NCBI GenBank assembly: GCA_041545745.1
Contig: CP168152.1
Location: forward strand, 2,354,001-2,418,000
Reading direction: 5' to 3'
DNA length: 64,000 nucleotides
From: Stenotrophomonas indicatrix
GTDB taxonomy: Bacteria > Pseudomonadota > Gammaproteobacteria > Xanthomonadales > Xanthomonadaceae
The notes beneath the pieces are model-generated. The model had not been told where the DNA came from, made no database searches, and worked only from the letters and a program-made list of their open reading frames with translations. Positions 27,227-46,118 of the stretch are shown piece by piece; within the stretch, counting starts at the first letter, position 1; every line of letters begins with the position of its first letter. The position numbers were made by a program, and so were the translations under genes.

Positions 27227-30200
27227 TCAATCGAAGGCCATGCCAAAGCCAATGCTCAGCAGCGGCTGGTCGCCCCGCGCGACAGATACCCCAGCGTTGA
27301 CGTTGTATCGGCCATCGCGGCTCCAGCGTGACAACCCCAGGGCCAATGCGGACTCACCGCGATAGCTGGCCGTACCAAAGTTCAACGTAACCTTGCCCGG
27401 CAGGTTGGGCGTGACCTGCACCAGCGCCGCCGAGGCAGCGATGCCGCGATTGATCTGTCGCGACATGTGCGAGGCCTGTGCGCCAATGGCCTGCTCCATC
27501 GCGTCAACGCGTTGGTCGGTGTAGCGGTTCACCGAAGCCATCTGCTCCTGCAGCTGGGCCACGTTGACCGCATCGGTATCGGCCCTGCCGGCAGCCACGT
27601 GGGCAATCTGGCGCTCGCCTCCGACGTGCCCGACCGACACGCTGTCGGCGCGATCGGCGATGGCATCAGAACCGAGCGCCACGCTGTTGTCTGCACTCGC
27701 CTGGGCACCGGAACCGGCTGCCACGGCGCCCTGGCCTGTGGCTTCAGCCGGCGCACCATCGGCCACCAGTGCCTCATTGCCGGTAGCGCCGTAGTACGGC
27801 AGATCCGACCCGGCACCACCGCCCGTTTGGCCTTCCAGCGCGCCGACACGATCCTGCAGTCCTTCCAGCTGCCGGCCGATGCCTTCGCCGATGGCCGACA
27901 ACTGACCGCCATTGACCGCCTCGCGGCTGCCCAGCTGCACGCGACCGTCGGCAACGTTGGTCAGCACGGTGCCTGCGGCACCACCGAACACCACCTGGCT
28001 GCGATCGCTGCCCGCCACATAGCCAACCGTCTCCTTGACGTCACCATCGTCGCCGACCAGCCCGGCCTGCTTCAGCTGGCGCAGATTGATGGCGTCGGTA
28101 TCGTCGCTGGCATCGGCCACGTGGGTGATCTGGCGTTCCGCACCATCACGCCCGATCGAAACGGCGTTGGCACGGTCGGACACCGACCCTGCGCCCAGTG
28201 CAATGGCACCGTCCACAGAAGCCTGCGCCCCCTGTCCCAGCGCGATGGCCGCAATACCGTCGGCCTGCGCCGACGCACCGATGGCCAGCGCCCCCACAGC
28301 GCTGATCGAGGCGTCGTCGCTGCCATCAGCACGACCATCAACCTTCAGATAGCGGCTGTCCTCTGGCTGCGCCGCCGACAGGCCGTCCTGCATCTGTGCA
28401 AGGGTCACTGCATCGGTTGCGTCATCGGCAGCGGCCAGGCCCTTCAGCTGGCGCGCACCCGTTGCCCCCGTCAGGTCGACCACAGCACCGGCACGACCCG
28501 AGGCCACCGAAATGTTGCCGCTGGCGGCATCCTGGCGCACCAGGCCTGCGTCGCCGCCGTTCCACGCATCGATCTGGCGCTGCGTATCCAACACATCGTC
28601 TTCGGTGTGGGTGACGCGCTGGTCGAGCACCTGCAGCTGCCCGTCCACCGCGTCCAGCGCAGAACCGGCATCGCGGAAGCTGCTGCCCTGTACGACATAG
28701 GTCGGGCCTGTCACGGAACCTGTGGCCGCCTCGACCTGCGCGCCACCACCGAGCGCGGCGACCGTGGACTGCAACTGCTGCAGGTTGACCACATCGGTCG
28801 CTTCGGTGCCGTTGGCCACGTTGATCAACTGACGCGTACCGATAGCGCCGCCACCCAAGGACAGCACCTGGTCGCGATCAGCGACCGAGCCTGCGCCCAG
28901 TGCGACCGCGTTCTCGCCGTTGGCGTGCGCGCCGGCACCGATGGCGACGCTACCCTGCCCGGCCGCACGCGCGTCGGCGCCCATGGCCAGTGAATGCGGG
29001 CCGCTCGCTGCCGCTCCGCTGCCCAGCGCGAGACTGCCGGTTCCGCCCGTGGTAGCCGGCGCATCGACATCACCGGCTGCGGCCTGGAAGTAGCGCTGGG
29101 CAACCACCAGGTCGCTGCCCAGATCGACCAGCTCGGCACGCTGCGCGCGGTCTTCCGCATCCAGTGCATGCAGCGCATCACCGGCGCTATGCACGGTGGT
29201 GCCCACCACATTGAAATCCGGTGCCCGCAGGGTGCCATCGGCGGCCACGCCCGCGCCTGCGCCAAGCGCCGCTGCCACACTGGCCACGGCGGCATCGGAC
29301 TGCGCCTTGTTGATGGCCTCGTCGCCAGCAACGGCATCGGCCACACCGCCCAGACGGCGGGCGCCTGCAGTTCCAGCCATACCAATGGCGGCGCCATCAC
29401 GATCCACACCGACCGTCAGGTCGCTGCCCGGCGCGGCCTGCTGGACCATACCGATGGTGCCCTGGCTGATCCGCGTATGCAGATCGTTCACCGATACGTC
29501 AACGCTGGAGAGGCCGCCGTCCAGCGCGGTGAGCGCGCTGCCGATGCTGGTGTGGGTGCCTCCGTGAGCAAGATCGAAAGCCGGCGGGATGACAGAGCCA
29601 TCGGTCGCCAGCGCACCGCCGGTAGCCTGCAGAAGTCCCTGCAGCTGCTGCACGCTGGCCACGTCATTGTCCTGCGTGCCATCGGCCATGTTCTCGATGC
29701 CACGGCGTGCGGTGGTTGAACCCAGCGCAACCGTGGCGTTGCCGCGGCTGACCGAACCGGCGCCGATGGCAACACTGTTGGCGTGGGTGGCGCGGGCGCC
29801 TGCGCCGATCGCGGAGGAGTACTGCCCGGTGGCGGTAGCAGCGCGCCCCAGGGCAATGCCTCGCTCGCCAGTGGCTACTGCCGCCGACCCCAATGCGGTC
29901 ACCACCGTACCGGCACCGTTGGCCTGGAAGCCAACCGCGGTCGCGTTCCAGGTGGTTCGCGTGCTGGCGCCCAGCGAGGTCGCGCCACTGGCGCCCGAGC
30001 CGTTCTGGCTGTCTGCGGCGGCACCGAAGCCGATCGACACAGCGTTGCTGCCGGTGGCCACCGAGTTGCTGCCCAGTGCGATGGCACCGTTGTTGGCACC
30101 ATTGCTGGCCGGTCGCGCGACGGCATTGCTGCCGATGGCGATCATGTTGATGCCGTTGACGCTGGCGGCAGTGGCATTGCTGCCGATGTTCACCACCAGC

Positions 30201-30457
30201 AGGCTGTCATCGGTTGCAGCCAACGGCAGGGCGCCACGCAACGCGGCGGGGTGCAGGCAGGCGGCTTCCTGCGGTTCGTGCGGTGCGCTGCACAGTACCT
30301 GCTGGATGTCGCTGGCAAGCACGTTTGGCGCGACAATCGCGAGGAGCACTGCGGCGATGCCCGCACCCGCGCGACGGCGACGGCCCTGGGCCAGTTCCGA
30401 GGCGACGACCCACTTGCCGGTGGCCGCGTTCCAGACGATGCGATAGATGCAGTTCAT
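27227..30457 (-). CDS. Trimeric autotransporter adhesin 1 (YadA/Hia-like, ESPR signal)
   Basis: 1076 aa from the ATG at 30457, which follows GGAGAA and opens an extended signal peptide region (MNCIYRIVWNAATGKWVVAS); a further upstream start is not plausible. After the signal sequence (to about ALASD) comes a passenger made of YadA head repeats (AIALGSNSVATGSNAVSIG, GIALGRAATATGQYSSAIG) and neck/stalk blocks of the type ERQITHVADASDDTDAINL. The C-terminal roughly 75 residues are the YadA anchor, ending SRWSRDGRYNVNAGVSVARG. Three chains form one outer-membrane barrel and display the stalk for surface adhesion, autoaggregation and biofilm. It is a tandem paralog of the next gene, with the same promoter motif about 95 bases upstream. 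Confidence 0.93.
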   Translation of the reverse strand: MNCIYRIVWNAATGKWVVASELAQGRRRRAGAGIAAVLLAIVAPNVLASDIQQVLCSAPHEPQEAACLHPAALRGALPLAATDDSLLVVNIGSNATAASVNGINMIAIGSNAVARPASNGANNGAIALGSNSVATGSNAVSIGFGAAADSQNGSGASGATSLGASTRTTWNATAVGFQANGAGTVVTALGSAAVATGERGIALGRAATATGQYSSAIGAGARATHANSVAIGAGSVSRGNATVALGSTTARRGIENMADGTQDNDVASVQQLQGLLQATGGALATDGSVIPPAFDLAHGGTHTSIGSALTALDGGLSSVDVSVNDLHTRISQGTIGMVQQAAPGSDLTVGVDRDGAAIGMAGTAGARRLGGVADAVAGDEAINKAQSDAAVASVAAALGAGAGVAADGTLRAPDFNVVGTTVHSAGDALHALDAEDRAQRAELVDLGSDLVVAQRYFQAAAGDVDAPATTGGTGSLALGSGAAASGPHSLAMGADARAAGQGSVAIGAGAHANGENAVALGAGSVADRDQVLSLGGGAIGTRQLINVANGTEATDVVNLQQLQSTVAALGGGAQVEAATGSVTGPTYVVQGSSFRDAGSALDAVDGQLQVLDQRVTHTEDDVLDTQRQIDAWNGGDAGLVRQDAASGNISVASGRAGAVVDLTGATGARQLKGLAAADDATDAVTLAQMQDGLSAAQPEDSRYLKVDGRADGSDDASISAVGALAIGASAQADGIAAIALGQGAQASVDGAIALGAGSVSDRANAVSIGRDGAERQITHVADASDDTDAINLRQLKQAGLVGDDGDVKETVGYVAGSDRSQVVFGGAAGTVLTNVADGRVQLGSREAVNGGQLSAIGEGIGRQLEGLQDRVGALEGQTGGGAGSDLPYYGATGNEALVADGAPAEATGQGAVAAGSGAQASADNSVALGSDAIADRADSVSVGHVGGERQIAHVAAGRADTDAVNVAQLQEQMASVNRYTDQRVDAMEQAIGAQASHMSRQINRGIAASAALVQVTPNLPGKVTLNFGTASYRGESALALGLSRWSRDGRYNVNAGVSVARGDQPLLSIGFGMAFD

Positions 30458-30520: not shown

Positions 30521-30566
30521 GATACTAGGCAAGCGCCCCCCGATGGCGTATCGGACGCGGCCTAAA
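30521..30566 (-). promoter_or_regulatory. Shared adhesion-regulon promoter motif, adhesin 1
   Basis: On the minus strand: TTTAGGCCGCGTCCGAT (30566-30550), 21 bases, then CTAGTAT (30528-30522) as a -10-like element. GTCCGAT would fall at about -41 to -35 relative to transcription start, the position of a class II activator site. The same GTCCGAT-21-CTAG layout is found before adhesin 2 and the fimbrial major subunit. Confidence 0.7.
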
Positions 30567-30615
30567 GCGCGCCCGGATACACCCGTGGGATGGTTTGTGA
30601 TTCAGCAGGTTGCAA

Positions 30616-30644
30616 CTGGGCGCGGCGTCGTGCGCCGCGCCCAG
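30616..30644 (-). terminator. Hairpin downstream of adhesin 2
   Basis: CTGGGCGCGGCG / CGCCGCGCCCAG forms a perfect 12-bp stem around TCGTG, just past the adhesin 2 stop (30653) on its strand. The following bases are only weakly T-rich. It could separate adhesin 2 transcription from adhesin 1, which then depends on its own promoter. Confidence 0.6.
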
Positions 30645-30652
30645 CGCTGGGC

Positions 30653-33600
30653 TCAGTCGCCCAGTACCACGCCGACGCCCATGCGGAAGATCGGCTTGTC
30701 GCCGCGCGCCATCGACGCGCCGCCGTTGACATTGACGCGGCCGTTGTCGCTCCAGCGCGACACGCCCACACCCATCGCCGTTTCGCTGCGGTAATTGGCC
30801 AGGTTGGCGTTGATGGTGGTCCTGCCCGGCAGGTACGGGGTCATCGGCGCCAGTGCAGCTGCGGCGGCGATGCCTCGGTTGGCTTGGCGGTTGACCTGGT
30901 CCAAGCGCTGTTCCAGGCCGCTCCAGGCATCCTGTACTCGCTCGTCGGCATACGCCTTGGCATCATCCACACCCTGTTGCAGCTGGCCTACGTTCACTGC
31001 ATCGGTGGCCTGCACACCGGCTGCCACGTTGGTGATCTGACGCTCGCCACCTTCGCGGCCGACCGACACGCTGTTCTCGCGGTCGGCGACCGAGCCGGCA
31101 CCCAGCGCAACGCTGTTGTCGGCCTGGGCTTCTGCGCCGGCACCGGCCGCCACGCTGCCCTGGCCGATGGCCTGGGCCGGGTTGTCACCCGCCTGATCGC
31201 CCGGCTGCGGATTGGCGCCGTAGTACGGCGGATTGCCGCCACCACCGGCATCGCCTGCTTCCAATGCGCCGACGCGGCCATCCAGATCGCCGATGCGGCC
31301 CTGCAGCTGGTCGCGCAGTGCGGCCAGCTGGCCACCGTTCACGGCCTCGCGGCTGCCTGCACCCACACGACCATCGGCCACGTTGGACAGCACGGTGCCA
31401 TTGGCACCACCGAAAGTGACCTGTGCACGCTGGCTGCCTGCATCATAGGTCACCGCATCCAGCATCTGCCCGCCATCGCCCACCAGACCTGCCGCCTTCA
31501 GCTGGCGCAGGTTCACCGCATCGGTATCCTCGCTGCCATCGGCCACATGGGTGATCTGGCGCTCGCTGCCGGCCGCACCCACCGACACGCTGTTGGCGCG
31601 ATCGGCCACGGCGCCAGCGCCCAACGCCACACTGTTGTCAGCCAGCGCCGCCGCCCCCTGGCCCAGCGCTACGCTACCCGCGCCATTGGCCTGGGCCGAT
31701 GCACCTACCGCCATCGCGCCCTGCCCGTTGGCCTGCGCATCATCACTGCCATCGCCTGCACCATCGACCCGCACGTAGCGGTTGCCGGTGGCGCGAAGGT
31801 CATCGACGGCCGAGTTCAGCTGGCCCAGGTTCACCGCATCACTGGCGTCGATGCCGGCAGCCACGCCCTTGAGCTGGCGTTCGCCGTTGGTACCGCGCAG
31901 GTCCACCACGGTGCCTCCGGTACCTGCACCGATCGTCACTGCAGCGTCCGCAGCGGACTGCTGCACCAGGCCGGCTTCGCCATTGCCCAGGTCCACCAGC
32001 TGCTGACGCAGCTGGGTGATATCGCCTTCGTTGCGGGTCACACGGCCGTCGATCACGGTCAGGCCACCGTCAACCGAAGACAATGCATCGCCCACGTTGT
32101 CGAAGGTCTGACCCTGCACGCTGTACTGCGGGCCGGTCACGGTGCCGGTCAGCGCATTGTGCGTCGCGCCGCCGCCCAGGCCCTCGATGACAGGAAGCAG
32201 CTGCTGCACGTTCACCGCATCTGCGGCTTCGGTACCGTTGGCCACGTTGATGATCTGGCGAGTGCCGTTACCGCCCATGCCCCAGCCCACCGAGACCACG
32301 TTGTCGCGGTCTGCTACCGCCTCAGCGCCCAGCGCGACTGAATTCTCACCACTGGCGCGTGCATTGGCACCCAGCGCGATCGCGCCGTCACCGCTGCTCG
32401 CACGCGCGCCCCAACCGACGGCCACACCCTGTGCAGCGCTCGCGGCGGCGCTGGCCCCGGCGGCGATGCTGCCCGAGCCCGTTGCAGCGGCTTCGTCGGC
32501 CACACCCGAGCCGTCCGCCTTGAAATAGCGGCTGCCTTCATCCAGCGCGTCGCGCAGATCAGCAAGGTCCTGGCCGGTGCTGCCAACACGGCCATCCAGT
32601 GCGGTCAATGCATCGCCTACGTTGCCGTAGTTGTTGCCATCCACGGCGTAGCTCGGCGCACTGATGCGCCCCTGCGCATCGGCAACGCTGCCACCGCCGA
32701 GCGCATCGGCCACCGAGGCCGAGGATGCCTGCAGCTGGCCCAGCGTCACGGCTTCGTCGGCCGCCGTGGCTGCGGCCACGCCACTGAGGCGACGGGCCCC
32801 GTCAGTACCCGTGAAGTCCACCGCAGCACCATTGGTGCTGGCACCCACGGTCAGGTTGGCACCCGGTGCTGCCTGCTGCACCAGGCCCACGGTGCCATTG
32901 TCCAGCGAAGTACTCAACTGGTTCAAGGTAGTGGTGGTGGTGGTCAGGCCGTCATCCAGCGCCTCCAGCGCGCTGCCGACGGTGGTGTGGGTACCGCCAT
33001 GGTCCAGCACATAGCTGGGCGCGGTGATGCTGCCGTCGGCAGCAACATCGGCGCCGCCACCCAGCGCCTGCACGCCGGCACGCAGCTGTTGCACGATGGC
33101 CGCGTCGTTGGCCTGCGTACCCGCTGCAACATTGACGACCTGGCGACGCAACGTGGCGCTGCCGACCGATACCGTGTTTTCGCGGTTGGCGACCGATGCA
33201 CGGCCGATCGCCACTGCACCGGCAGCCGTAACCTGCGACGAACCGCCGAGGGCAACGCCGCCGGAACCGCTGACCGAGGCGTTGTCACCCATCGCCACCG
33301 CTTCGGTGGCGCTGCCGCGCGCGCCGCGCCCAACAGCCACTGCTGCCGAGCCGCCAGCATTGGTGTTGTAGCCCACCGCCACGCTGTTCCAGCCACCGGC
33401 GCTGGCATTGGCACCCACGGCCAGCGACCCTGCAGCGCCCTGCGCGTTCTGGCTGTTGGCACTTGCACCCATACCGATGGCGACTGCGTTGTTGCCCTGG
33501 GTGCTGGCGTTGGCACCCATCGCAATGGCGTTGTCCGCGTTGCCGTCCGCATCGGCCAAGGCGCGTGCGTTGTTGCCGATGGAGATCGCGCCCACTCCTG

Positions 33601-33949
33601 CGGCCGTGGCAGCCGTACCCGAGCCATTGACCTTCACATACAAGTCATCCACCGCGGCCTGTACACCAATGGCGCGGGTCTGCGCTGCCGCATCTGCGTT
33701 CGCATCGGCATCAGTGGCCACACAGCGGCCCTCAGCATCGATCACACCCGCCTGGCCCTGTGCCAGGGTGCACGTGGTGCTGCTGTCTTCGGCCGCCCAC
33801 AACGGCAGGGCCAGCATCAGCAGACTGGCCGCAGCCAGCCCGCGTGCGGCAACCTTGCCGCCCTTCTTCCTGCGGCCGGTGGCCAGCTCTGAAGCAACCA
33901 CCCACTTTCCGATGGCCGCGTTCCACACAATCCGGTAGATGCTGTTCAT
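30653..33949 (-). CDS. Trimeric autotransporter adhesin 2 (YadA/Hia-like, ESPR signal)
   Basis: 1098 aa from the ATG at 33949 after GGAGA, giving the ESPR start MNSIYRIVWNAAIGKWVVAS nearly identical to adhesin 1. A signal sequence ends near ALPLWAAED. The passenger has many head repeats (NAIAMGANASTQGNNAVAIG, AVAMGDNASVSGSGGVALGG) and neck motifs (TDAVNLRQLKAAG), interrupted by stalk blocks with coiled-coil register. The C-terminal anchor ends SRWSDNGRVNVNGGASMARG. It is an outer-membrane trimeric adhesin. The two proteins share architecture throughout but diverge in repeat number and sequence, so they are old paralogs rather than a fresh duplication. Confidence 0.93.
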   Translation of the reverse strand: MNSIYRIVWNAAIGKWVVASELATGRRKKGGKVAARGLAAASLLMLALPLWAAEDSSTTCTLAQGQAGVIDAEGRCVATDADANADAAAQTRAIGVQAAVDDLYVKVNGSGTAATAAGVGAISIGNNARALADADGNADNAIAMGANASTQGNNAVAIGMGASANSQNAQGAAGSLAVGANASAGGWNSVAVGYNTNAGGSAAVAVGRGARGSATEAVAMGDNASVSGSGGVALGGSSQVTAAGAVAIGRASVANRENTVSVGSATLRRQVVNVAAGTQANDAAIVQQLRAGVQALGGGADVAADGSITAPSYVLDHGGTHTTVGSALEALDDGLTTTTTTLNQLSTSLDNGTVGLVQQAAPGANLTVGASTNGAAVDFTGTDGARRLSGVAAATAADEAVTLGQLQASSASVADALGGGSVADAQGRISAPSYAVDGNNYGNVGDALTALDGRVGSTGQDLADLRDALDEGSRYFKADGSGVADEAAATGSGSIAAGASAAASAAQGVAVGWGARASSGDGAIALGANARASGENSVALGAEAVADRDNVVSVGWGMGGNGTRQIINVANGTEAADAVNVQQLLPVIEGLGGGATHNALTGTVTGPQYSVQGQTFDNVGDALSSVDGGLTVIDGRVTRNEGDITQLRQQLVDLGNGEAGLVQQSAADAAVTIGAGTGGTVVDLRGTNGERQLKGVAAGIDASDAVNLGQLNSAVDDLRATGNRYVRVDGAGDGSDDAQANGQGAMAVGASAQANGAGSVALGQGAAALADNSVALGAGAVADRANSVSVGAAGSERQITHVADGSEDTDAVNLRQLKAAGLVGDGGQMLDAVTYDAGSQRAQVTFGGANGTVLSNVADGRVGAGSREAVNGGQLAALRDQLQGRIGDLDGRVGALEAGDAGGGGNPPYYGANPQPGDQAGDNPAQAIGQGSVAAGAGAEAQADNSVALGAGSVADRENSVSVGREGGERQITNVAAGVQATDAVNVGQLQQGVDDAKAYADERVQDAWSGLEQRLDQVNRQANRGIAAAAALAPMTPYLPGRTTINANLANYRSETAMGVGVSRWSDNGRVNVNGGASMARGDKPIFRMGVGVVLGD

Positions 33950-34021
33950 GATGTTCTCCGTAGGCAATGCGCCTGCTTGGTCGGGCGGTTGAATGGCGGC
34001 CGATGCCGCGTCTACGGGGAA

Positions 34022-34066
34022 ATGCTAGAAAGCAGCGGCCTCGTCCCGAATCGGACGGGGCCTAAA
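34022..34066 (-). promoter_or_regulatory. Shared adhesion-regulon promoter motif, adhesin 2
   Basis: Minus strand: ATTTAGGCCCCGTCCGAT (34067-34050), 21 bases, then CTAGCAT (34028-34022). GTCCGAT is part of a wider dyad, CGTCC-N6-GGACG, at 34042-34057. The motif lies about 100 bases before the adhesin 2 start codon. Confidence 0.72.
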
Positions 34067-34084
34067 TGGCGCCTGCGGCGCTGG

Positions 34085-34104
34085 CTGAACGACCTGCCGT
34101 TCAG
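34085..34104 (-). terminator. Possible terminator of the fimbrial operon
   Basis: CTGAACG / CGTTCAG, 7-bp stem with a 6-base loop, starting 13 bases beyond the stop of the last minor fimbrin. There is no T-run. It lies just upstream of the adhesin 2 promoter motif, where the fimbrial transcript should end. Confidence 0.4.
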
Positions 34105-34116
34105 TCCGCCGGACAA

Positions 34117-34605
34117 TCAGTTGTAGGTCATCGTGACCGTGATCGGGCGGCTCACCGCGCCTGCGGAAACCGTCGCCGCGCTCTGCACGAAGCGCGCGCG
34201 GAAGGCGTGGGTGCCGGCGGCCGTCGCCATCTGGGTCCACCCGCCGGGCCGCAGGCGTGCGCCACTGCTGGTACGTTGCAGCTCGATACCGATGCCGGCA
34301 ACGCCTTGGAACAGCGTCGCGTCATTGTTGTCGGCGACGCCATTGAAGTGCAGGCCCACCCGCGCGACCAGAGGATCGCATTGGCTGACCACCACGTTGA
34401 CGGCCTGGAACGGCGTACTGAACGCACCGGTGAACTGGGTGGACTGATAGGTTCCCAGGTCGACATCGGCCACGGCGATGCGGCATACGCCCGGCAGAAT
34501 GGTGCCGGTGACGTTGAAGTTGGTGGTGGTGGCGGTCTGCGCCGATGCTGCACCGGACAGCGTCAGCACGGCGGCGAGCAGCAGGCCTGGAATCGGAAGA
34601 TGCAT
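34117..34605 (-). CDS. Minor fimbrial subunit (chaperone/usher pilin) C
   Basis: 162 aa. Signal peptide LLLAAVLTLSGAASAQ. Pilin domain with NVTGTILPGVCRIAV, a second Cys in VVVSQCDPLVARV and the C-terminal beta strand with penultimate aromatic RPITVTMTYN, as needed for donor-strand and chaperone binding. It resembles the two genes upstream (35102-35596 and 34614-35093). Last gene of the fimbrial operon; 8 bases separate it from the preceding gene. Confidence 0.85.
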   Translation of the reverse strand: MHLPIPGLLLAAVLTLSGAASAQTATTTNFNVTGTILPGVCRIAVADVDLGTYQSTQFTGAFSTPFQAVNVVVSQCDPLVARVGLHFNGVADNNDATLFQGVAGIGIELQRTSSGARLRPGGWTQMATAAGTHAFRARFVQSAATVSAGAVSRPITVTMTYN

Positions 34606-34613
34606 GGAAGCTC

Positions 34614-35093
34614 TCAGTTGTAGGTCAGGGAAACGGTGATGGGCCGCTGGATGCGTCCAACGGAGACCGGCATCGCCGATTGCAGCAGGCGCGCACGGAA
34701 CGGGTAGACGCCGTCCGCCGTCACGTATTGGGTGCTCCCACCCGGCGGAAGGGGCACGTTCAACGACGACACCACGCGTACCAATTGCACACCCACGCCG
34801 GGCACTCCCTCGAACAACGCGCTGTTGTGACTGTCGGCGGTGCCGTCGAAGGTCATTGCCACGCGCCGAATCAAGGGGTCGCAGTCACTGACGGTTCCGC
34901 TGAAATCGACGTAGGCGGTGCCATGGCTGCCAGTGAACACGTTCGCCAGGTGCGACCCGAGATCCACGTCCGGGAAGGAAATCCGGCATGCGCCGGGCAG
35001 GATCTCGCCAGAAACGGTGAATGGCTGGGTGTCCTGCGCCTGCACACTGGCCGTCAACATGGCCAGCACGAGGAAAAATGCAGTGCGATGCAT
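34614..35093 (-). CDS. Minor fimbrial subunit (chaperone/usher pilin) B
   Basis: 159 aa. Signal peptide FFLVLAMLTASVQAQ, then VSGEILPGACRISFPDVDLG, the second Cys in VSDCDPLIRRV and the terminal RPITVSLTYN pilin strand. Closest in pattern to its downstream neighbour, suggesting tandem duplication. Minor pilins of this size commonly act as tip adaptors or assembly initiators and terminators; which role applies here is not visible. Confidence 0.85.
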   Translation of the reverse strand: MHRTAFFLVLAMLTASVQAQDTQPFTVSGEILPGACRISFPDVDLGSHLANVFTGSHGTAYVDFSGTVSDCDPLIRRVAMTFDGTADSHNSALFEGVPGVGVQLVRVVSSLNVPLPPGGSTQYVTADGVYPFRARLLQSAMPVSVGRIQRPITVSLTYN

Positions 35094-35101
35094 GACGCGC
35101 C

Positions 35102-35596
35102 TCAGTTGTAGGTGACCTGTACGGTCACAGGAGTGCGGATGGTGCCTGCCGACACCGTGCCGGTGCGCACCAGGCGCGCATACAGCAGGTGACCCGCCGC
35201 AGGCGTTCCATTGGTAGGCCAGTCGAAGCCTGCCTGGTTTGGCGCCAATGTCTGCTGGGCGGGCGTGTACAACCAGACGGCCAGGCCGCGCACACCGCCT
35301 GCCGCGGGTATCGCGAAGTAGCGCGCGTCGCTGCTGTCGGCGCTTCCGGCCATGCGCACGTGCAGCACCCGCAGGTCATTGGCGCAGCTACTGCGGTTGA
35401 GCGTGAAGCCGACCACGGGCGACTGCGGATTGGCCGTGAAGTACGCCGCGTCGAATGTACCCACGTCGACATCGGCGACGCTGATCTGGCAGGTTCCCGG
35501 CTGGAAACGACCGCTGAAGCGCAGGGTCAGGTCAGCCGCTTGCGATGGTAGCGGCAGCAACGCAGCAAGCGCGGCCAGCAACAGCACAGCGTGCAT
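35102..35596 (-). CDS. Minor fimbrial subunit (chaperone/usher pilin) A
   Basis: 164 aa; start at 35596 chosen because it opens the signal peptide HAVLLLAALAALLPLPSQA. The longer frame overlaps the adhesin gene and lacks a signal. Pilin pattern: FSGRFQPGTCQISVADVDVG, second Cys in LNRSSCANDLRV, final strand TPVTVQVTYN. Its start codon lies 1-2 bases from the adhesin stop (translational coupling likely). Confidence 0.85.
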   Translation of the reverse strand: MHAVLLLAALAALLPLPSQAADLTLRFSGRFQPGTCQISVADVDVGTFDAAYFTANPQSPVVGFTLNRSSCANDLRVLHVRMAGSADSSDARYFAIPAAGGVRGLAVWLYTPAQQTLAPNQAGFDWPTNGTPAAGHLLYARLVRTGTVSAGTIRTPVTVQVTYN

Positions 35597-35597
35597 G

Positions 35598-36656
35598 TCA
35601 GTTGTACTCCAGGGTGATGGTGGCGGCGCCATTGGCCTGTCCCGAGGCGGCCGCCGCCGCAAGTCGGTAATAGCGTGCACGCAACATGATCGTGTACTGC
35701 GCGTTGTTGGTTTCGGTCAGCGCCAAGCCGGAATCCCGCATTGCATTGAAGCCGATCGAATCCTGTGTCTGCGTGCCGATCTGGATACCAATGCCGGTCG
35801 CCGTCATGTTCACGCCATCGTCCTGCAGCGCCATGACCGATCGCGTGCGGTCGGCAACCGCGGTGACCGGATCGACACGATAGCGGATGCGGTTGTCCAC
35901 TCGCCCGTTGGCGGTCTGCACCGTGCCGGTGGTCAAGTGGCCGCGGTAGCGTCCGAAGAATGCAGGGCAGTCCCGCAGCACCACCGGCACGTTCACCCAG
36001 CCCGTGGTGGAGCCGACCGCAGGGATCTCGCTCATCTGATGCACGCCCAGGTCCACGGGCACATCGCTGGTGCTGCACGTACGCGAGACGATGTTCAGGC
36101 TGCCCTGCACGCGCCCGCTCCACAACAGAACGTTCCGGTTGACGCCACTCATCCGGTACTCGAACTGCGGGAGGCTGGCGCCAGTCACGGTCCCTGCGTT
36201 GATCGGCCCGATCTTGATCAGGCTCACGTCATAGGACTGAACAGGCCAGAGCAGCAGGATCGGCTCGATGACTTCGTCTTCAGTCAGGATTGGAAACCCT
36301 CTTCCGCTGAACCAAACCGCCACACCCACGCCCGGCACGTTGGTCTCATAGACAGTGCCATAGGTGGGATGGACAAAGTCTGAGGCGCGATGCGGCAGCG
36401 AGGTGTACTGCCGGATGCGATCCATTCGCCCCGGCGAGCACGTGATCTGGTTCGCAGGACCGGCATAGTAGGTCGCACGGAAGATCTCGGTACCCACCGG
36501 CACGTCCGGCCCGACAGTGATCGAGCCATTGAGGTTGGCGATGTTGACCAATGGCCTGTCACCATCGACAAGCCGGCAGTTCTGCGCCCAGACAGGGGCA
36601 CTGGCCAACAGCATCATGGCCAGCACAACGCGGGCCACCAACAGGATCGGGATCAT
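35598..36656 (-). CDS. Two-domain fimbrial tip adhesin
   Basis: 352 aa; start at 36656 overlaps the usher stop (ATGA) and gives the signal peptide VVLAMMLLASAPVWAQ. At about twice the size of a pilin, it has an N-terminal roughly 180-residue putative receptor-binding domain (Cys pair in NCRLVDGDRP and QITCSPGRM) and a C-terminal pilin domain (RTCSTSDVPVDLG, VVLRDCPAFFG) ending with the strand AATITLEYN. This is the layout of FimH/PapG-like lectin adhesins. The receptor is unknown. Position directly after the usher matches the smf-type fimbrial operons of S. maltophilia. Confidence 0.83.
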   Translation of the reverse strand: MIPILLVARVVLAMMLLASAPVWAQNCRLVDGDRPLVNIANLNGSITVGPDVPVGTEIFRATYYAGPANQITCSPGRMDRIRQYTSLPHRASDFVHPTYGTVYETNVPGVGVAVWFSGRGFPILTEDEVIEPILLLWPVQSYDVSLIKIGPINAGTVTGASLPQFEYRMSGVNRNVLLWSGRVQGSLNIVSRTCSTSDVPVDLGVHQMSEIPAVGSTTGWVNVPVVLRDCPAFFGRYRGHLTTGTVQTANGRVDNRIRYRVDPVTAVADRTRSVMALQDDGVNMTATGIGIQIGTQTQDSIGFNAMRDSGLALTETNNAQYTIMLRARYYRLAAAAASGQANGAATITLEYN

Positions 36657-39331
36657 GGCGCTTTCTCCAGAGTGGCCACATGGGGTCGGGTGCCGGGCTC
36701 GGACTTCTGTGCAGCGGCGGCGGCCTGGCAGCGTGCTTCCACTACGGTGTAACCGTCGCTGGAACGCGACATTGGCACCTGCACCTGCATCACGCACTGC
36801 TCGTCGCTGCCGGGACCCCACTGCACCTGCACCGGGCCGGACGCCTGCAGGCCGGTGAGCAGCAGGCGGCTGCCCTGCCCCACCACACCAACATTGGTGC
36901 CTTGGCCGTCAGTTGCCTCGGCGCCGAACGGCAATGGCCGGCCGTCATCGGTACGTGCGTCCACCATCAGGCCGTGACTTGCACGCGTGCTGAAAGCCAG
37001 CCGCACCAGGGAACCAGCACGCGGCGCGACGCTGCGTGCGGTCTCCTGCAGCTCCACGTCGAAGCCAGTGCCCTTCGGATCAATCGAGATGGTGTTCAAC
37101 TGGTAAGGCGTCAGGAACGGGACCACGGCATAGCCGCGCTTGTCCAGGCGTGCACCGCCCCCGTTCTCGATGCGCGCGCCAGCCGCGCCAGCGGCATGCA
37201 CCAGTGCTGCCGTTTCGCCCAGCGGCGGGGACAAGGTCAGCCCGTCGCCATGCAGCACCATGCCACCTGCGGCGCCCATGCCCAGCTGGGTGTAATCGCT
37301 GCCATTGCTGATGCTGGCCGTCCACTGGCCGCGCGCACCGCGGTAGCCGGTGTTGATATCGGCGCTGTTGCTGCCCGCGATGCGTGACAGGGTAGCGCCA
37401 TAGCTGAAGCGGTCGTCCCGCGATGAGATGCCATTGGTCGACAGCTGCGTCGCCGGCTCGCCATTGCGGCTGCGGGTATGCATCAGGTTGCCCAACGGCG
37501 CACGCGGAGACCTGCCCAGCGGCAGCGACACCATCAGCATCAGCCGGTTGTCCACCCGTGCCTGCTGGGCCCTTGCTGCCGGCATGTCCACGCCGGGAAT
37601 GCTGTCCTGCAGGTAGCCGCGGCCGAAGTCGATCGAATCGCGGGTACGCTGGAAGTTGACGCTGTAGCTCAATGCCTTCCACTGGTTGCTGTAGCCGATG
37701 CTCAGGTCGAGCTGACGGCCGGGTGCGTTCCAGAAATCGCGGCGGGTGCCGATCACGAACAGCTGCCCACCCCGCTCACCCAGCTGCTGGTTCATGCTCA
37801 GGTCCATGCGGTTGCGCTGGCGCGCTACGGTGTCGATATCCAGATCGCGGGCGCGCGCATCACGCAGCGATGCCCAGTCGCGCAGGCTCACGTAGTCCCG
37901 GGTGGCATAGCGGTAGGCGGCCACGGCAAAAGACGTTCCGGTGCGCACGACGTTGCGGTTGTAGGCCAACCGGAAGCTGCTGCCGGACATCGGCGGCAGC
38001 CCCTGCACCGCCGTCCGCGCCAGCGACACGTCTGCGGCCACCGCGCCGAAGGATGTGTTGATGGCCGCACCTGCAAGGCCGGCACGGTAGTCCTCACCCA
38101 CGACCATGCCGCCGTAGGTGCTGAGGATGTTGCTGAGGCCGCGCTGGTATTGCAGCTGCAGCAGCTCTGGCGCCGCACGCAGCGAGCTTTCGTCGACCCG
38201 CCCGGCGGACATGCTCCAGCGCGACTGGCCCGGTCGCAGCAGCTGCGGTACCGCCGAGTACGGCACGGTGAAGCGGCGCGAGCGGCCATCCGCCTCGCGC
38301 ACCTCGACTTCAAGGTCACCGGCGTAGCCGGTTGGATACAGATCGTCCAGTTCGAACGGCCCCGGCGCGACGCTGGCCTCGTGCAGCACGCTGCCGCGCT
38401 GGCGCACGATCACCCGTGCGTTGGTTTCGGCCACGCCGCGGATCACCGGTGCGAAACCTCGCTGCGACTGCGGCAGCATGCGATCGTCGCTGCCCAGGCG
38501 AACGCCACGCAGGCGTACACCTTCGAACAGGTCGCCCGGCGTGGAGGTGTCGCCCAGCATCAGCTGCGCCTTCCACCGCACGATATCGTGCTGCAGATAC
38601 GCGGCCGTTGAGCGGTAGCGCTGGGGTTGGCTGCCCCCCAGGGTCATCGCGCCCTGGTGCACCAGCTGCCATCCGGCGACGCGGCCGGCGGCGTTCAGTC
38701 CCACGAAGCCCGAATAGCGGGCCGTGCTGCCGTTGTTGTAGTGATACGCGTTGGCGTTGTAGCTCAAGGCGAACGCGGGCACGCCTGCATCCCACTGGCT
38801 GGGATCGACGTAACCGCGTGCCTCGTTGCGCAGGTACAGCTGGGGCACCTGCAGGTCCAGCGTCTGCCTGCCCGCATCGAACGCTGCCGTGGCACCGGGC
38901 ACCAGATCTCCCAGGCTTCCGCAGAACAGCTCCTGCGGCCATGGCAACGCGGGCAGGTGCTGCGCGTCGGCCTGCAGCCGTTCCGGACCGATGCCGTAAG
39001 CCTGCAGGTTGGCCGGATCCAGGCACAGGCGGGAACTGCCCTCCACCTCGCGGTAGACGATGTCGGTACGGGCCTGCCACTGCCCGTTGAGACGGACGTC
39101 GCCACGATAAGTGCCGGGCGCGACATAGTCAGCCTGTGCGAAGCGTTCAAGATCCAGGCGGGCCGATGCACCGGCCGGAAGGAACGCCGCATCGAACGTC
39201 ACTGCATCATCGGCACCGGGCTCGGTTGCCGAGACGGTGTGGGCGAACAGGATGGTGGCCACCAGCATCGGCAGCCGGGCATGCCGCAGGCGGCAGGCGC
39301 CGTTACCCGGCGCCCGGATCGGGGCGTTCAT
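36653..39331 (-). CDS. Fimbrial outer-membrane usher protein
   Basis: 892 aa from the ATG at 39331 (GGAG 11-14 bases upstream). After a signal region comes the N-terminal chaperone-binding domain (TFDAAFLPAGASARLDLERF), then a large beta-barrel with plug (LRGVRLGSDDRMLPQSQRGF, APVIRGVAETNARV), RRFTVPYSAVPQLLRPGQ and C-terminal domains ending in a Cys-containing segment (SDEQCVMQVQVPMS). Ushers take chaperone-subunit complexes, catalyse donor-strand exchange and thread the fimbria through the outer membrane. The size is normal (about 850-900). Confidence 0.94.
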   Translation of the reverse strand: MNAPIRAPGNGACRLRHARLPMLVATILFAHTVSATEPGADDAVTFDAAFLPAGASARLDLERFAQADYVAPGTYRGDVRLNGQWQARTDIVYREVEGSSRLCLDPANLQAYGIGPERLQADAQHLPALPWPQELFCGSLGDLVPGATAAFDAGRQTLDLQVPQLYLRNEARGYVDPSQWDAGVPAFALSYNANAYHYNNGSTARYSGFVGLNAAGRVAGWQLVHQGAMTLGGSQPQRYRSTAAYLQHDIVRWKAQLMLGDTSTPGDLFEGVRLRGVRLGSDDRMLPQSQRGFAPVIRGVAETNARVIVRQRGSVLHEASVAPGPFELDDLYPTGYAGDLEVEVREADGRSRRFTVPYSAVPQLLRPGQSRWSMSAGRVDESSLRAAPELLQLQYQRGLSNILSTYGGMVVGEDYRAGLAGAAINTSFGAVAADVSLARTAVQGLPPMSGSSFRLAYNRNVVRTGTSFAVAAYRYATRDYVSLRDWASLRDARARDLDIDTVARQRNRMDLSMNQQLGERGGQLFVIGTRRDFWNAPGRQLDLSIGYSNQWKALSYSVNFQRTRDSIDFGRGYLQDSIPGVDMPAARAQQARVDNRLMLMVSLPLGRSPRAPLGNLMHTRSRNGEPATQLSTNGISSRDDRFSYGATLSRIAGSNSADINTGYRGARGQWTASISNGSDYTQLGMGAAGGMVLHGDGLTLSPPLGETAALVHAAGAAGARIENGGGARLDKRGYAVVPFLTPYQLNTISIDPKGTGFDVELQETARSVAPRAGSLVRLAFSTRASHGLMVDARTDDGRPLPFGAEATDGQGTNVGVVGQGSRLLLTGLQASGPVQVQWGPGSDEQCVMQVQVPMSRSSDGYTVVEARCQAAAAAQKSEPGTRPHVATLEKAP

Positions 39332-39383
39332 CAGGATGTCTCCGCAGGAACAGGGAATGGCGCGCACCCGGTGCGCGCTGTAC

Positions 39384-40124
39384 TCAGGGCTGCAAGGCAA
39401 CCTGGGTCGGCACCAGGGCACCGAAGTCATTGATGACGGTGATCGCGCCCTTCAGTTCGCCCGGGGGCCGGGTTGTGAGACCCTCCAGCACGAACTCGCC
39501 CTTTGCGAACGGTGCGACCATGCCGCCCCCCTGCATGCCTGCTTCCTTGCCATTGGCCCACAGGCCGACGCTGGCGAAGTTGACGTGGTAGGGCGTGGGG
39601 TTGTCCGCCCGCAGCACCAGTCCACTGGACGCGGAGTGCAGCGACCAACGTACCTTCTGATGCGCCAGCACCGGCTCGCCGGCCAGGTTTGGTGGGCGGT
39701 AGAAGACCTTGATGCGGGTACGGAAGGCGAACTGCAGGATGTTGGCCGCGCTACCGCCCGTCTTCGGCGGAATCTCGAGCATGTTCAGCCAGTAAAGCGT
39801 TTCACGATCGGTTGGCAGCGTGGCACCGGTGAACAGGATACGGGCAGTCTGCTGTTTCTTCGGATCCAGGCGGAACACCGGTGGCGCGACCGCAAACGGC
39901 GCCTTGGCGCTGTCCGGCGTGGACTGGTCGTCACCGTCATCCAGCCACACCTGGACCAGCACGGCGCGCTCGCCTTCGTTCATGAATTTGAGCGTGACTT
40001 CCTTGTCCTGCGCGGGATAGACCACGCGGGTACCACCGATCACCACCGATGCGTCGGCTGCCTGGGCGAACAGTGCGCCCAGGGCGAGGACGCCGGCACA
40101 GAGCATGCGGTTGAAGGAGAGCAT
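39384..40124 (-). CDS. Periplasmic fimbrial chaperone (PapD-like)
   Basis: 246 aa. Signal peptide MLCAGVLALGALFAQAADA, then two Ig-like domains. The N-terminal domain has GGTRVVYPAQDKEVTLKF (conserved Arg of the subunit-anchoring site), VQVWLDDGDD, APPVFRLDPKKQQTARIL and LYWLNMLEIPPK, the classic PapD pattern. It stabilises subunits by donating its G1 strand until delivery to the usher. It lies between the major subunit and the usher, 52 bases before the usher start. Confidence 0.94.
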   Translation of the reverse strand: MLSFNRMLCAGVLALGALFAQAADASVVIGGTRVVYPAQDKEVTLKFMNEGERAVLVQVWLDDGDDQSTPDSAKAPFAVAPPVFRLDPKKQQTARILFTGATLPTDRETLYWLNMLEIPPKTGGSAANILQFAFRTRIKVFYRPPNLAGEPVLAHQKVRWSLHSASSGLVLRADNPTPYHVNFASVGLWANGKEAGMQGGGMVAPFAKGEFVLEGLTTRPPGELKGAITVINDFGALVPTQVALQP

Positions 40125-40153
40125 GGATCACCTCATGGATGAGGCCGGACACA

Positions 40154-40179
40154 GGGCCGCCGGCACGTGCCGACGGCCC
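40154..40179 (-). terminator. Intercistronic hairpin between major fimbrin and chaperone
   Basis: GGGCCGCCGGCAC / GTGCCGACGGCCC, 13-base arms with a single mismatch and practically no loop, in the 64-base gap after the major subunit stop. There is no T-run. Such hairpins often protect or partly terminate the pilin mRNA so that the major subunit is made in excess over chaperone and usher. Confidence 0.6.
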
Positions 40180-40188
40180 CGCGCGGCA

Positions 40189-40752
40189 TCAGTTGTAGAC
40201 AACCTTGTAGTTGACGTACGACTGCACGAAGCCGGGCGCAGCAGCGCCATTGACGGCGACGTACTGGCTGGCCATGTCGATCACAGCGGTGTTGTTGGCG
40301 ATGGTTACCGGATCGGTCTTGAAGGACGGATCGCGCAGATCGACCACGGCGTTCTTGTACAGCACCTGGATCTGGGTGTTGACGGCCGGGGCATTGGCTT
40401 CCTGGTTGCGCAGGTTGCCGTTGCCCGCGTCCACCTGGCCGGCGGTCGGGTCGAAGTACAGCTCGGCGATCTTGCCGTTCTGGCAGGTACCCTGGCCCGG
40501 GCCGCCGATGACAAGCTGGTACGGATGCAGGCCCGCAACGTCACCTGCAGCTGCCAGCTGGTTGGCCTGGACCGGGTCCATCGGCACGGTGATGTTGGTG
40601 GTGCCGATGGCGCCTGCACCGCCGGAAATCGTGCAGGTCAGGTCGGTCACTTCGCCGGTGAATTCGATGACGCCCGAGCCGTAGGACTGGGCGTTGGCGG
40701 CCGCAGCAGCCAGCAGCAGGGTTGCAGCGGAAGCAATCGGGAGGAGCTTCAT
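40189..40752 (-). CDS. Major fimbrial subunit (SMF-1-like fimbrin)
   Basis: 187 aa; the start at 40752 gives the signal peptide KLLPIASAATLLLAAAAANA, and the longer upstream frame is not protein-like. The mature pilin starts QSYGSGVIEFTGEVTDLTC and has the second Cys in GQGTCQNGKI and the terminal strand YVNYKVVYN. First gene of the cluster and larger than the three minor pilins, as expected for the rod subunit. S. maltophilia SMF-1 fimbriae have the same gene order (fimbrin, chaperone, usher, adhesin); I cannot tell whether this is that locus or a paralogous one. Its promoter region carries the shared GTCCGAT-CTAG motif. Confidence 0.88.
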   Translation of the reverse strand: MKLLPIASAATLLLAAAAANAQSYGSGVIEFTGEVTDLTCTISGGAGAIGTTNITVPMDPVQANQLAAAGDVAGLHPYQLVIGGPGQGTCQNGKIAELYFDPTAGQVDAGNGNLRNQEANAPAVNTQIQVLYKNAVVDLRDPSFKTDPVTIANNTAVIDMASQYVAVNGAAAPGFVQSYVNYKVVYN

Positions 40753-40898
40753 GGTGTTGGATTCTTCTTCACAGGTGTGATCCGCGCGTGGCGGCAAAAG
40801 GGCCCCGCCGCCGGGGAGGACGGCGGGGCCGGGAACGGGTGGGACACTTGGGGAGAAGCGTCCTTCCCGGCAGCCCGGTTCATTGGCCTGCAGGAGGA

Positions 40899-40943
40899 AT
40901 GCTAGGAATCGGAGGCGGTTGCCTCCATCGGACCCGGCCGAGA
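40899..40943 (-). promoter_or_regulatory. Shared adhesion-regulon promoter motif, fimbrial operon
   Basis: Minus strand: TCTCGGCCGGGTCCGAT (40943-40927), 21 bases, then CTAGCAT (40905-40899). Spacing is identical to the two adhesin promoters. The -10-like element lies about 150 bases before the major fimbrin start, leaving a long leader that also contains a run of C on the coding strand. Confidence 0.72.
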
Positions 40944-40979
40944 TTTCGGCCGCGGTCGCCGAACACGGTTTCCCGCGGA

Positions 40980-41168
40980 TCACGCATCATCACCTTCGTC
41001 GTCGGCGGGCGCATGCCGGTGCCAATGACGGCGCAGCTGGTTGCGGCGCTTCGGCGAGGCGAACAGGTAGTGATTCAACAGTTCGAGGAATTTCGCCTGC
41101 GCGGCTGCGGGCAGCCGGCTGAAGTGCAACAGCAGGGCGATCAAACGGGGGTCGTCTCGAACGGGCAC
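40980..41168 (-). CDS. Small 62-codon ORF between the regulator and the fimbrial operon
   Basis: 62 aa with a GTG start at 41168. Predicted helical, with FSRLPAAAQAKFLELLNHYLF followed by a basic stretch (KRRNQLRRHWHRH) and an acidic tail. No family recognised. Support for a real gene comes from a copy of the shared promoter motif whose -10-like element ends about 30 bases before the GTG. It could be a small regulator or an anti-regulator of the fimbrial switch, or the ORF may be chance within a long leader. Confidence 0.45.
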   Translation of the reverse strand: MPVRDDPRLIALLLHFSRLPAAAQAKFLELLNHYLFASPKRRNQLRRHWHRHAPADDEGDDA

Positions 41169-41197
41169 ATCGTCACCGCAGCAGGGATATGTCTCCG

Positions 41198-41241
41198 AGC
41201 CTAGGCATGGGCGACGCCGGGTCCATCGGACCCGTCCTCAA
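41198..41241 (-). promoter_or_regulatory. Shared adhesion-regulon promoter motif, small ORF / distal fimbrial promoter
   Basis: Minus strand: TTGAGGACGGGTCCGAT (41241-41225), 20 bases, then CTAGGCT (41204-41198). Here GTCCGAT is centred in a perfect dyad GGGTCC-ATC-GGACCC (41219-41233). It begins at the last bases of the response-regulator stop region and could drive the 62-codon ORF and/or a longer fimbrial transcript. Confidence 0.62.
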
Positions 41242-41931
41242 TCAGTCGGTGGATCCATCCCCGCCTGCGCCTGCGCGTGCGTTCTGTGACGCCTGCACAA
41301 GGCCGTGCGTCAGCGCGTACTCGAAGATCTCCGCATCGCGCTGCAATCCCAGCTTGCGCATCGCTGCGATCTTCTGCGTGCTGATGGTCTTGCGGCTGCG
41401 TCCAACGCGCTCGGCGATCTGCATCACGCTCAGCCCCTCGGCAAACATCCGCAGCACCTCCGATTCCCGCTTCGACAGGGCCTCGGTCTCCTGCACATCG
41501 CCCTGCGGGCCACTCTCGGCGATCAGCCGCGCGATCTCCGCTGATATGAAGGCCTGGCTGCGGCTGGCGGCGTGCACAGCCGGAACCAGCTGCTCCAGCG
41601 GATCGCTCTTGCTGACGATGCAGGACACCCCGGCACGCTGTATCGAGCGCAGAACCAGAGGACTCTCCATGCCGGTCAGTACCACCAGGTGCAGGGTCGG
41701 AAAGCGGCGCTGCAGGAAGCGCAGCAGCGTAACGCCGTCCCCATAGCGGCCATTGGGCATCGAGAAATCGCAGACCGCCACATCCACCGGAGTGCGGCTG
41801 AGCAGATCGACCAGTTCGGTGGAATCGCGTACCAGCCCGGCAATGGCCAGGCCCGGCGCGGCCTGCAGCAGGTGCTCCATGCCGGCCAGCAGGACCGGAT
41901 GGTCATCGGCCACGACGATGTTCAACGGCAT
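41242..41931 (-). CDS. NarL/RcsB-type response regulator (adhesion island, minus strand)
   Basis: 229 aa. Receiver domain (about 1-125): NIVVADDHPVLLAGMEHLL, phospho-acceptor Asp in VAVCDFSMPNGRYGDGV, and the conserved Lys in CIVSKSDPLEQL. LuxR-type helix-turn-helix (about 150-215): LSKRESEVLRMFAEGLSVMQ, ERVGRSRKTISTQK. The ISTQK recognition-helix region is of the BvgA/RcsB/EvgA type, whose partners are BvgS-like phosphorelay kinases; two such kinases are encoded nearby. Divergent from a paralogous regulator at 42048, and transcribed toward the fimbrial and adhesin genes. Confidence 0.92.
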   Translation of the reverse strand: MPLNIVVADDHPVLLAGMEHLLQAAPGLAIAGLVRDSTELVDLLSRTPVDVAVCDFSMPNGRYGDGVTLLRFLQRRFPTLHLVVLTGMESPLVLRSIQRAGVSCIVSKSDPLEQLVPAVHAASRSQAFISAEIARLIAESGPQGDVQETEALSKRESEVLRMFAEGLSVMQIAERVGRSRKTISTQKIAAMRKLGLQRDAEIFEYALTHGLVQASQNARAGAGGDGSTD

Positions 41932-42047: not shown

Positions 42048-42707
42048 ATGTCCCATCCGATCATCCGCGTTGCCATCGCCGACGACCATCCGGTCATCCG
42101 CATGGGCATTGAAGCTGCCATCGACGATATTCCTACCCTGTCCTGCATCGGCGCGGTGGGGGATTCCTCGGCCTTGGTCGCGTTGCTGGAGCAGACCCCC
42201 TGCGATGTGGTGGTGACCGACTACGCCATGCCCGGCGGCGCCTTCGGTGACGGTCTGCAGCTGCTTGATCACCTGCGCGCGCGCTTTCCGGACCTGCGCC
42301 TGATCGTGATGACCGGGCTCGACCAGCCGGCGATGATCCAGGCGCTGCACGCCAGTGGCATCGACCACATCCTGAGCAAGGCCGATGACACCAGCCACGT
42401 GCCGGCGGCGATCGCAGCGGCATGGGCCAACCGTCGCTACCTGTCGCCGTCGATCACCCAACTGCTCCCTGCACGCGGGGCCCCGCGTGCCATCGCGGCG
42501 CTGTCGCCCCGCGAGCACGAGGTGCTGGCGCTGTTCGTCTCCGGGTTGAGCGTCAATGAAATCGCAACCCGACTGGACCGTCGCAAGCAGACGATCAGTA
42601 CCCAGAAGACCGCCGGAATGGCCAAGCTCGGCATCGACAAGGACGCCGACCTGTTCAAGTTCGCCAGCGAGCTGGGACTGCGCACAGTCAGGCCGGATAC
42701 GGAGTAG
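42048..42707 (+). CDS. NarL/RcsB-type response regulator (adhesion island, plus strand)
   Basis: 219 aa from the ATG at 42048; the longer frame upstream covers the divergent promoter. Receiver motifs: RVAIADDHPVIRMGIEAAI, Asp in VVVTDYAMPGGAFGDGLQLL, Lys in HILSKADDTSHV. C-terminal helix-turn-helix: LSPREHEVLALFVSGLSVNE, TRLDRRKQTISTQKTAG. It is a clear paralog of the divergent regulator. Convergent with the hybrid kinase gene, whose stop lies 11 bases away. Two regulators and two kinases side by side suggest a branched phosphorelay. Confidence 0.92.
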   Translation: MSHPIIRVAIADDHPVIRMGIEAAIDDIPTLSCIGAVGDSSALVALLEQTPCDVVVTDYAMPGGAFGDGLQLLDHLRARFPDLRLIVMTGLDQPAMIQALHASGIDHILSKADDTSHVPAAIAAAWANRRYLSPSITQLLPARGAPRAIAALSPREHEVLALFVSGLSVNEIATRLDRRKQTISTQKTAGMAKLGIDKDADLFKFASELGLRTVRPDTE

Positions 42708-46072: not shown

Positions 46073-46118
46073 GGTGATTCCCCTTGAATGATGTCGTGCG
46101 ATGGCGCCCGCAATGAAT

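Follow-up and report, generated by a model that had tools for sequence, protein, structure and literature searches.

A 64,000-nucleotide stretch of the Stenotrophomonas indicatrix chromosome (contig CP168152.1, positions 2,354,001 to 2,418,000; hereafter the window) carries a cluster of surface-attachment genes in which a two-part promoter element recurs: a GTCCGAT box followed, at a nearly constant distance, by a -10-like sequence. The gene order on the minus strand is two kinase genes (HK2 and HK1), a response regulator gene (RR1), a 62-aa open reading frame (ORF), fimA, genes for a chaperone, an usher, a tip protein and three pilins, and, finally, two trimeric autotransporter genes, both with ESPR signal peptides. 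A sequence-only reading of this DNA had described the element at four places and proposed that two embedded regulators act on it. Both are indeed REC-GerE response regulators, but they are divergent, the one at 42048-42707 (RR2) lying on the plus strand and facing away from the one at 41242-41931 (RR1). The features are listed below with the evidence for each.

48888-48904, minus: fifth box (GTCCTAT at 48894-48888 plus left arm), before HK2; position-specific scoring matrix (PSSM) score 17.9, and relatives
48860-48865, minus: TAGCCT, presumed -10 of the HK2 promoter, 22 bases past the box; spacing statistic and sequence
46119-48785, minus: HK2, sensor kinase (HisKA-HATPase), 888-aa ORF; ORF and Pfam
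42719-46387, minus: HK1, hybrid kinase (HisKA-HATPase-REC-Hpt); domains and NCBIfam
42048-42707, plus: RR2, REC-GerE response regulator, RcsB-like; Pfam, structure match, NCBIfam and alignment
41242-41931, minus: RR1, REC-GerE response regulator, RcsB-like; Pfam, structure match, NCBIfam and alignment
41225-41241, minus: small-ORF box (GTCCGAT at 41231-41225 plus left arm); sequence, genome scan and alignment
41198-41203, minus: TAGGCT, presumed -10 of the small-ORF promoter; sequence and alignment
40980-41168, minus: small ORF, 62 aa, GTG start; family profile, homologues and model
40927-40943, minus: fimbrial-operon box (GTCCGAT at 40933-40927 plus left arm); sequence and genome scan
40899-40904, minus: TAGCAT, presumed -10 of the fimbrial promoter; sequence
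40795-40892, minus: structured fimA leader with C-rich hairpin loops and a terminator-like hairpin; folding, weak sX13-like match
40189-40752, minus: fimA, major pilin, first gene of the chaperone-usher operon; Pfam FimA at 21.7 bits, under the cut-off of 30
34117-40124, minus: remaining chaperone-usher operon (chaperone, usher, tip, three minor pilins); domain search
34050-34066, minus: box of adhesin 2, YadA-type (GTCCGAT at 34056-34050 plus left arm); sequence and genome scan
34022-34027, minus: TAGCAT, presumed -10 of the adhesin 2 promoter; sequence
30653-33949, minus: trimeric autotransporter adhesin 2 (ESPR, YadA head, stalk, anchor); domain search
30550-30566, minus: box of adhesin 1, YadA-type (GTCCGAT at 30556-30550 plus left arm); sequence and genome scan
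30522-30527, minus: TAGTAT, presumed -10 of the adhesin 1 promoter; sequence
27227-30457, minus: trimeric autotransporter adhesin 1 (ESPR, YadA head, stalk, anchor); domain search

The listed reading frames of HK2 and HK1 overlap by about 270 bases (46119-46387, minus strand), and the real start of HK1 is probably located further downstream.

Occurrence and conservation of the element

Reading of the minus strand confirmed all four two-part elements, with spacings of 21, 21, 21 and 20 bases between GTCCGAT and CTAG; the earlier list was, however, incomplete, as a fifth, variant site precedes the kinase genes. The pattern GTCCGAT-N19-22-CTAG matched four times in the window against 0.03 expected, a number reached in none of 100 shuffles. 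The genome-wide scan suggested by the sequence-only reading found the pattern exactly four times in the 4,658,546 bases of the strain's own genome, each time at one of these sites, whereby all exact matches are confined to this locus. GTCCGAT alone was not enriched in the window (10 occurrences against 7.1 expected, with 15 of 100 shuffles reaching 10) and was dropped as a candidate, so that the two-part architecture is the signal.

Conservation was followed in 91 Stenotrophomonas genomes, 44 of which encode an RR1 relative at E <= 1e-40; the 27 genomes (own included) with a relative at E <= 2e-54 are referred to as carriers. The loci of the 26 other carriers, of a weaker match (L098) and of a genome from a single-sequence search with the small ORF (L099) were fetched, giving 28 loci and, together with the window, 29 sequences. 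Within 120 bases after RR1, 19 of the 29 contain GTCCGAT (17) or GTTCGAT (2), followed in all 19 by TAnnnT 21 or 22 bases on. In the alignment of small-ORF promoters (14 rows, with the near duplicates L072, L073, L078, L087 and L097 left out), the seven box columns hold 1.6-2.0 bits, and 16 of the 19 spacer columns hold at most 0.55 bits. The orthologous promoters, whose comparison the sequence-only reading had proposed as a check, have thus kept the motif but not most of the spacer. The box is also present in rearranged loci: an inverted small ORF is preceded by an exact site in L092 and by a GTCTGAT variant in L088, and L095 is inverted with one GTCCTAT. The weaker match L098 has a GCCTGAT variant.

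The fixed distance was also evident when all GTCC(G/T)AT occurrences in the 29 sequences were counted without selection by spacing: TAnnnT follows 14 times at 21 bases and 24 times at 22, compared to no more than twice at each of the other 53 spacings in the range 5-59, although species relatedness inflates these counts. The relatives mostly have C-TAnnnT, which rules out CTAG as an essential part. The earlier proposal of a sigma-70-like -10 therefore holds, but CTAG was over-specified, the constant parts being GTCC(G/T)AT and TAnnnT at 21-22. The exact original pattern is present in 32 of the 91 genomes, own included, mostly in one copy each; G064 and G068 have three copies at the corresponding locus and G075 has three scattered ones.

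Sites before surface genes, linked and unlinked

The association of the element with adhesin genes extends beyond the small-ORF promoters. Apart from the training sites there, the 29 sequences contain 109 more GTCC(G/T)AT, 21 of them with TAnnnT at 21/22, and these 21 precede major pilin genes (11), YadA-type adhesins (6) and a fimbrial tip adhesin, an ESPR autotransporter, an inverted small ORF and HK2 (one each), numbers that species relatedness inflates as well. A PSSM trained on the 14 small-ORF promoters only, with a shuffle maximum of 18.8 over 5.9 Mb of strand, found a second class of sites, with a spacing one base longer, before fimA (L079, L081, L082, L084-L087, L094) and before ESPR adhesins (the window, L072-L074). 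Outside the small-ORF promoters 17 sites score above 18.8, and 15 of them precede pilin, tip, autotransporter or small-ORF genes.

The fifth site of the window, GTCCTAT-N22-TAGCCT at 48894-48860, was found by the PSSM scan and the spacing count about 110 bases before HK2. Among 17 regions upstream of HK2, a GTCC-box scoring at least 9.2 lies 58-127 bases before the extrapolated start in 15 (the window and 14 of the 16 relatives), and no such box was found in L179 and L180. TAnnnT stands at spacing 22 in six of these 15, including the window, and CATGCT in six of the other nine. Since boxes precede HK2 both in the window and in the relatives, the kinase genes probably belong to the regulon.

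A sequence-only model of 30 sites (R1), searched over the 91 genomes, gave 42 listed matches at E <= 0.0113, by hand count: 27 model sites, seven close orthologues and eight others. Five of the eight precede pilin or YadA genes, namely a YadA adhesin in G026, pilins in G089, G069 and G045, and in G061 a fimA that is 88% like that of the window and is located about 15 kb away from the RR1 of G061. Pfam gave no match for the pilin of G089 and only a weak one for that of G069, and both are encoded upstream of further fimA-like genes, a chaperone and an usher. No fimbrial gene was seen at the RR1 locus of either genome, and their boxes precede a chaperone-usher operon that is located on a different contig or at a distance of 1.2 Mb, which points to action of the regulators in trans. 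By hand count, 6 of the 27 carriers but only 1 of the 64 other genomes have an independent R1 match (Fisher p 0.0025). The comparison of genomes as a whole is partly circular, as the 30 sites come from genomes then searched, and the species are not independent. Overall, the sites stay before pilin, autotransporter-adhesin, small-protein and kinase genes even where these were moved, inverted or unlinked. As related species keep the signal before the same kinds of genes, this is probably a surface-attachment gene set, and the earlier suggestion of its co-regulation by the embedded regulators gains support from the unlinked matches before pilins and adhesins.

Regulators and the proposed mechanism

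RR1 and RR2 both consist of a receiver and a GerE (LuxR-type helix-turn-helix) domain according to Pfam. The nearest solved relative of either full-length protein is RcsB (5vxn/5w43; E 6e-41 and 1e-38), and RcsB is also the best NCBIfam model for both, at 158 and 149 bits; as the equivalog cut-off of 235 is missed, they should be called RcsB-like and not RcsB. Likewise, the best NCBIfam model for HK1 is RcsC, with 402 bits, below the cut-off of 920. The residues D10, D11, D56, T87 and K109 are kept in 54 of 54 aligned regulators, including RR1 and RR2 (an additional row was excluded for its masked letters). Where the divergent pair is present, in 19 loci, the RR1 and RR2 sequences fall into two separate supported clades of 19, which indicates that the pair was inherited together. 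The regulators are thus RcsB-like and not of the BvgA type suggested by the sequence-only reading: kinship to EvgA or NarL is weaker than to RcsB, and BvgA is not among the matches listed.

The box is a quasi-palindrome. Complementarity between the left flank and the right arm peaks at centres -2.0 and -1.5 from the first G (z 7.6 and 7.7; 500 shuffles of the left flank of each row), whereas eight other centres gave z of 1.1 or less. With TAnnnT placed at -12 to -7, the dyad centre falls at about -42. Class II activators, such as those of the BvgA/NarL type, sit near -42 and overlap the -35 region, and the putative activator site has the same position. The earlier idea of an activator site in place of the -35 is supported and can be refined to a dyad centred near -42. 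The left arm is TTTAGGC at both adhesin sites, and the left arms before the small ORF and fimA deviate from a TTAGG-like half-site. The Escherichia coli RcsAB box has the consensus TaAGaatatTCctA, whose TCCTA resembles the right arm of the GTCCTAT sites, although most sites in our set are GTCCGAT. The RcsB-DNA structure has the half-site TTAGGAA (flhDC), which resembles TTTAGGC, with base contacts from K180 and S184 (PMC5829831).

The element is probably the RcsB-type box of a conserved adhesin regulon, in other words an activator-dependent sigma-70 promoter served by RR1 and/or RR2. In the proposed mechanism, the RcsC-like kinases HK2/HK1 would phosphorylate one or both regulators, and the phosphorylated RR1 and/or RR2 would bind the quasi-palindromic box, whose left arm is close to TTTAGGC or TTGGAC and whose right arm is GTCC(G/T)AT. 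Centred some 42 bases before the expected start, the box would stand in for a -35, with a -10 of the form TAnnnT 21-22 bases past it, and the bound regulator would recruit RNA polymerase. The kinase genes (as feedback), the small protein, the chaperone-usher fimbria and both YadA-type adhesins would thereby be switched on jointly. A more elaborate version is doubtful, but worth stating: the co-inherited paralogues RR1 and RR2 might be obligate heterodimer partners on a box that is asymmetric, with its right arm strict and its left arm loose, the two kinase inputs acting as an AND gate for a genus-wide adhesin regulon and the regulated three-helix protein as a feedback partner.

A number of observations weigh against an RcsB-type box served by RR1 and/or RR2. 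A backward-read control pattern is as frequent in the strain's genome as the motif itself (four times, one forward and three reverse); the number of matches is therefore less striking than their clustering, the chance of four random matches all falling inside 10.7 kb being, by our own arithmetic, about 5e-8. Ten of the 29 sequences are outside the small-ORF promoter alignment, in which the spacing was picked by looking for TAnnnT. The small ORF of L089, L090 and L094 comes with GTCCTAT without TAnnnT at 21-22, L091 has GTCCTAT with no small ORF detected, and L093 and L099 yielded no convincing site in the region after RR1 or in the PSSM scan. The fimA sites of L081, L082, L084, L086 and L087 score 15.0-18.5, inside the shuffle range, and the fifth window site is below the shuffle maximum as well; two sites exceeding it (L079 at -3114, L089 at 9640) do not, as far as seen, precede such genes. 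The HK2 sites lack TAnnnT at 21/22 in 9 of the 14 relatives. Three of the eight other R1 matches are not before adhesins (a signal peptidase in G061, an unknown 135-aa ORF in G044, an in-gene position in G064), and one strong match, before a pilin, is in G045, a genome without a close RR1. Moreover, the positions contacting bases in RcsB differ: K180 is kept in RR1 and is Q in RR2, and S184 is T in both.

The box letters do not track the recognition helix, as K or Q at position 180 does not follow GTCCGAT versus GTCCTAT. In G041/G042 (L096, L097) the small-ORF site and a second site are both GTTCGAT, and RR1 has ISAQK in place of ISTQK in its recognition helix, a possible case of regulator-box co-evolution.

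Among the alternatives, the one that survives best, though it is improbable, is that the box is real and conserved, but its main regulator is another RcsB-like protein encoded elsewhere, in a paralogous module, with RR1/RR2 being secondary. The good G045 pilin site speaks for it, as does an RcsB-like regulator with 39% identity that is encoded in G045, G062 and G061 and is followed by TTTAGGAAACGCCTGAT-N21-CTAGGCT before a large ORF, which in G045, where it was scanned, encodes a pertactin-like autotransporter. This paralogue, however, has its own box variant alongside, the strain's own genome encodes only RR1 and RR2 as RR1-like regulators at E <= 1e-40, and the independent strong matches are concentrated in the RR1 carriers, as counted above. 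Reading the two blocks as the -35 and -10 of an alternative sigma factor would account for their conservation at a fixed spacing and for the lack of a sigma-70-like promoter match at these places, yet it is very unlikely: the upstream block belongs to a dyad, TAnnnT in the downstream block is of the sigma-70 form, the site adjoins response regulators, and a gap of 20-22 bases is long for a -35/-10 spacer. That the sites are mere copies from local duplication or shared ancestry, as the paralogous look and longer common flank of the two adhesin genes might suggest, can be practically dismissed, as the spacers of the four sites are unlike, the box is kept across species while the spacer drifts, and operons that are relocated, inverted or unlinked have retained it.

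The closest known system is RcsCB/PvrSR-cupD of Pseudomonas aeruginosa PA14. There, RcsB activates cupD, which requires an RcsAB-like box in the promoter of the pilin gene, and RcsC, an unorthodox kinase of the HK-REC-Hpt kind, is encoded alongside (PMC2696094, PMC3842833). Both loci thus combine an RcsB-type regulator and an HK-REC-Hpt kinase with a chaperone-usher operon. As opposed to PA14, whose PvrR has an EAL domain, the window has two divergent RcsB-like regulators; both are REC-GerE, and no EAL-domain regulator was found in the cluster, to which this search was confined. The putative targets in S. indicatrix add two YadA-type adhesins, the small protein and the kinase genes, and the box differs from that of cupD by the GTCC(G/T)AT arm and the fixed distance to the -10.

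Our literature search, covering the best matches and few subscription papers, returned no description of the box or of RcsB-controlled fimbriae in Stenotrophomonas, a genus that includes an opportunistic pathogen. The results predict, in a form open to testing, a recognition site and a regulon for surface attachment in this genus, whereby one box would link the chaperone-usher fimbriae and autotransporter adhesins with a conserved, uncharacterized small protein and with the kinases in control, and the fixed geometry makes targets predictable from sequence. They would also carry the RcsB-fimbria link of PA14 to another family, with a regulator pair instead of one. In E. coli, the partner of RcsB is often RcsA or another auxiliary, in contrast to the two full response regulators paired in the window, and such a pair, with its asymmetric site, lends itself to testing the idea of RcsB heterodimers.

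The arrangement of kinases, divergent RR2-RR1 and small ORF is also present in one Dyella genome (L136). Together with the paralogous module and its box variant, this suggests that an RcsB-like regulator with a box beside surface genes seems to be a principle wider than this locus. In that module the box is of the GCCTGAT/GGCTGAT type, at the same distance to CTAGnnT or TAnnnT (L170:8664, L171:7844, L172:7742, L173:7432 and 15463, and L098), several times before an autotransporter or kinase gene. RR1-like regulators were also seen in Dyella, Paraburkholderia, Cupriavidus and Pseudomonas protegens (L136, L138-L140, L142-L146), in most cases adjoined by kinase, usher or YadA-like genes.

The small protein and the fimA leader

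The 62-codon ORF is a member of a conserved family for which Pfam gave no match. Its family profile finds it in 27 of 43 scanned regions, and a single-sequence search did so in 5 of 297 genomes. The database holds 61 homologues, the named ones being hypothetical or uncharacterized proteins from Stenotrophomonas, Herbaspirillum, Xanthomonas theicola and a compost metagenome. The protein was modelled as three helices with a pLDDT of 85, and the fold search gave no match in the PDB.

The fimbrial box starts 181 bases before the fimA ATG, with the structured leader in between. This leader folds unusually well (z -4.3) and has C-rich hairpin loops, and its terminator-like hairpin stays paired in G061 with changed letters. 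An sX13-like small RNA (for sX13 see PMC3771888) between the fimbrial promoter and fimA was considered and rejected: the leader scores 32 bits against sX13 (Rfam RF02232), below the gathering score of 50, and in the two nearest relatives it was not found as sX13 at E <= 1, their terminator tails being poor. The leader might possibly act as an attenuator or give rise to a leader-derived RNA. The probable sX13 gene of the genome is located at G000:C1:4504727-4504840, with 117 bits, above the Rfam cut-off.

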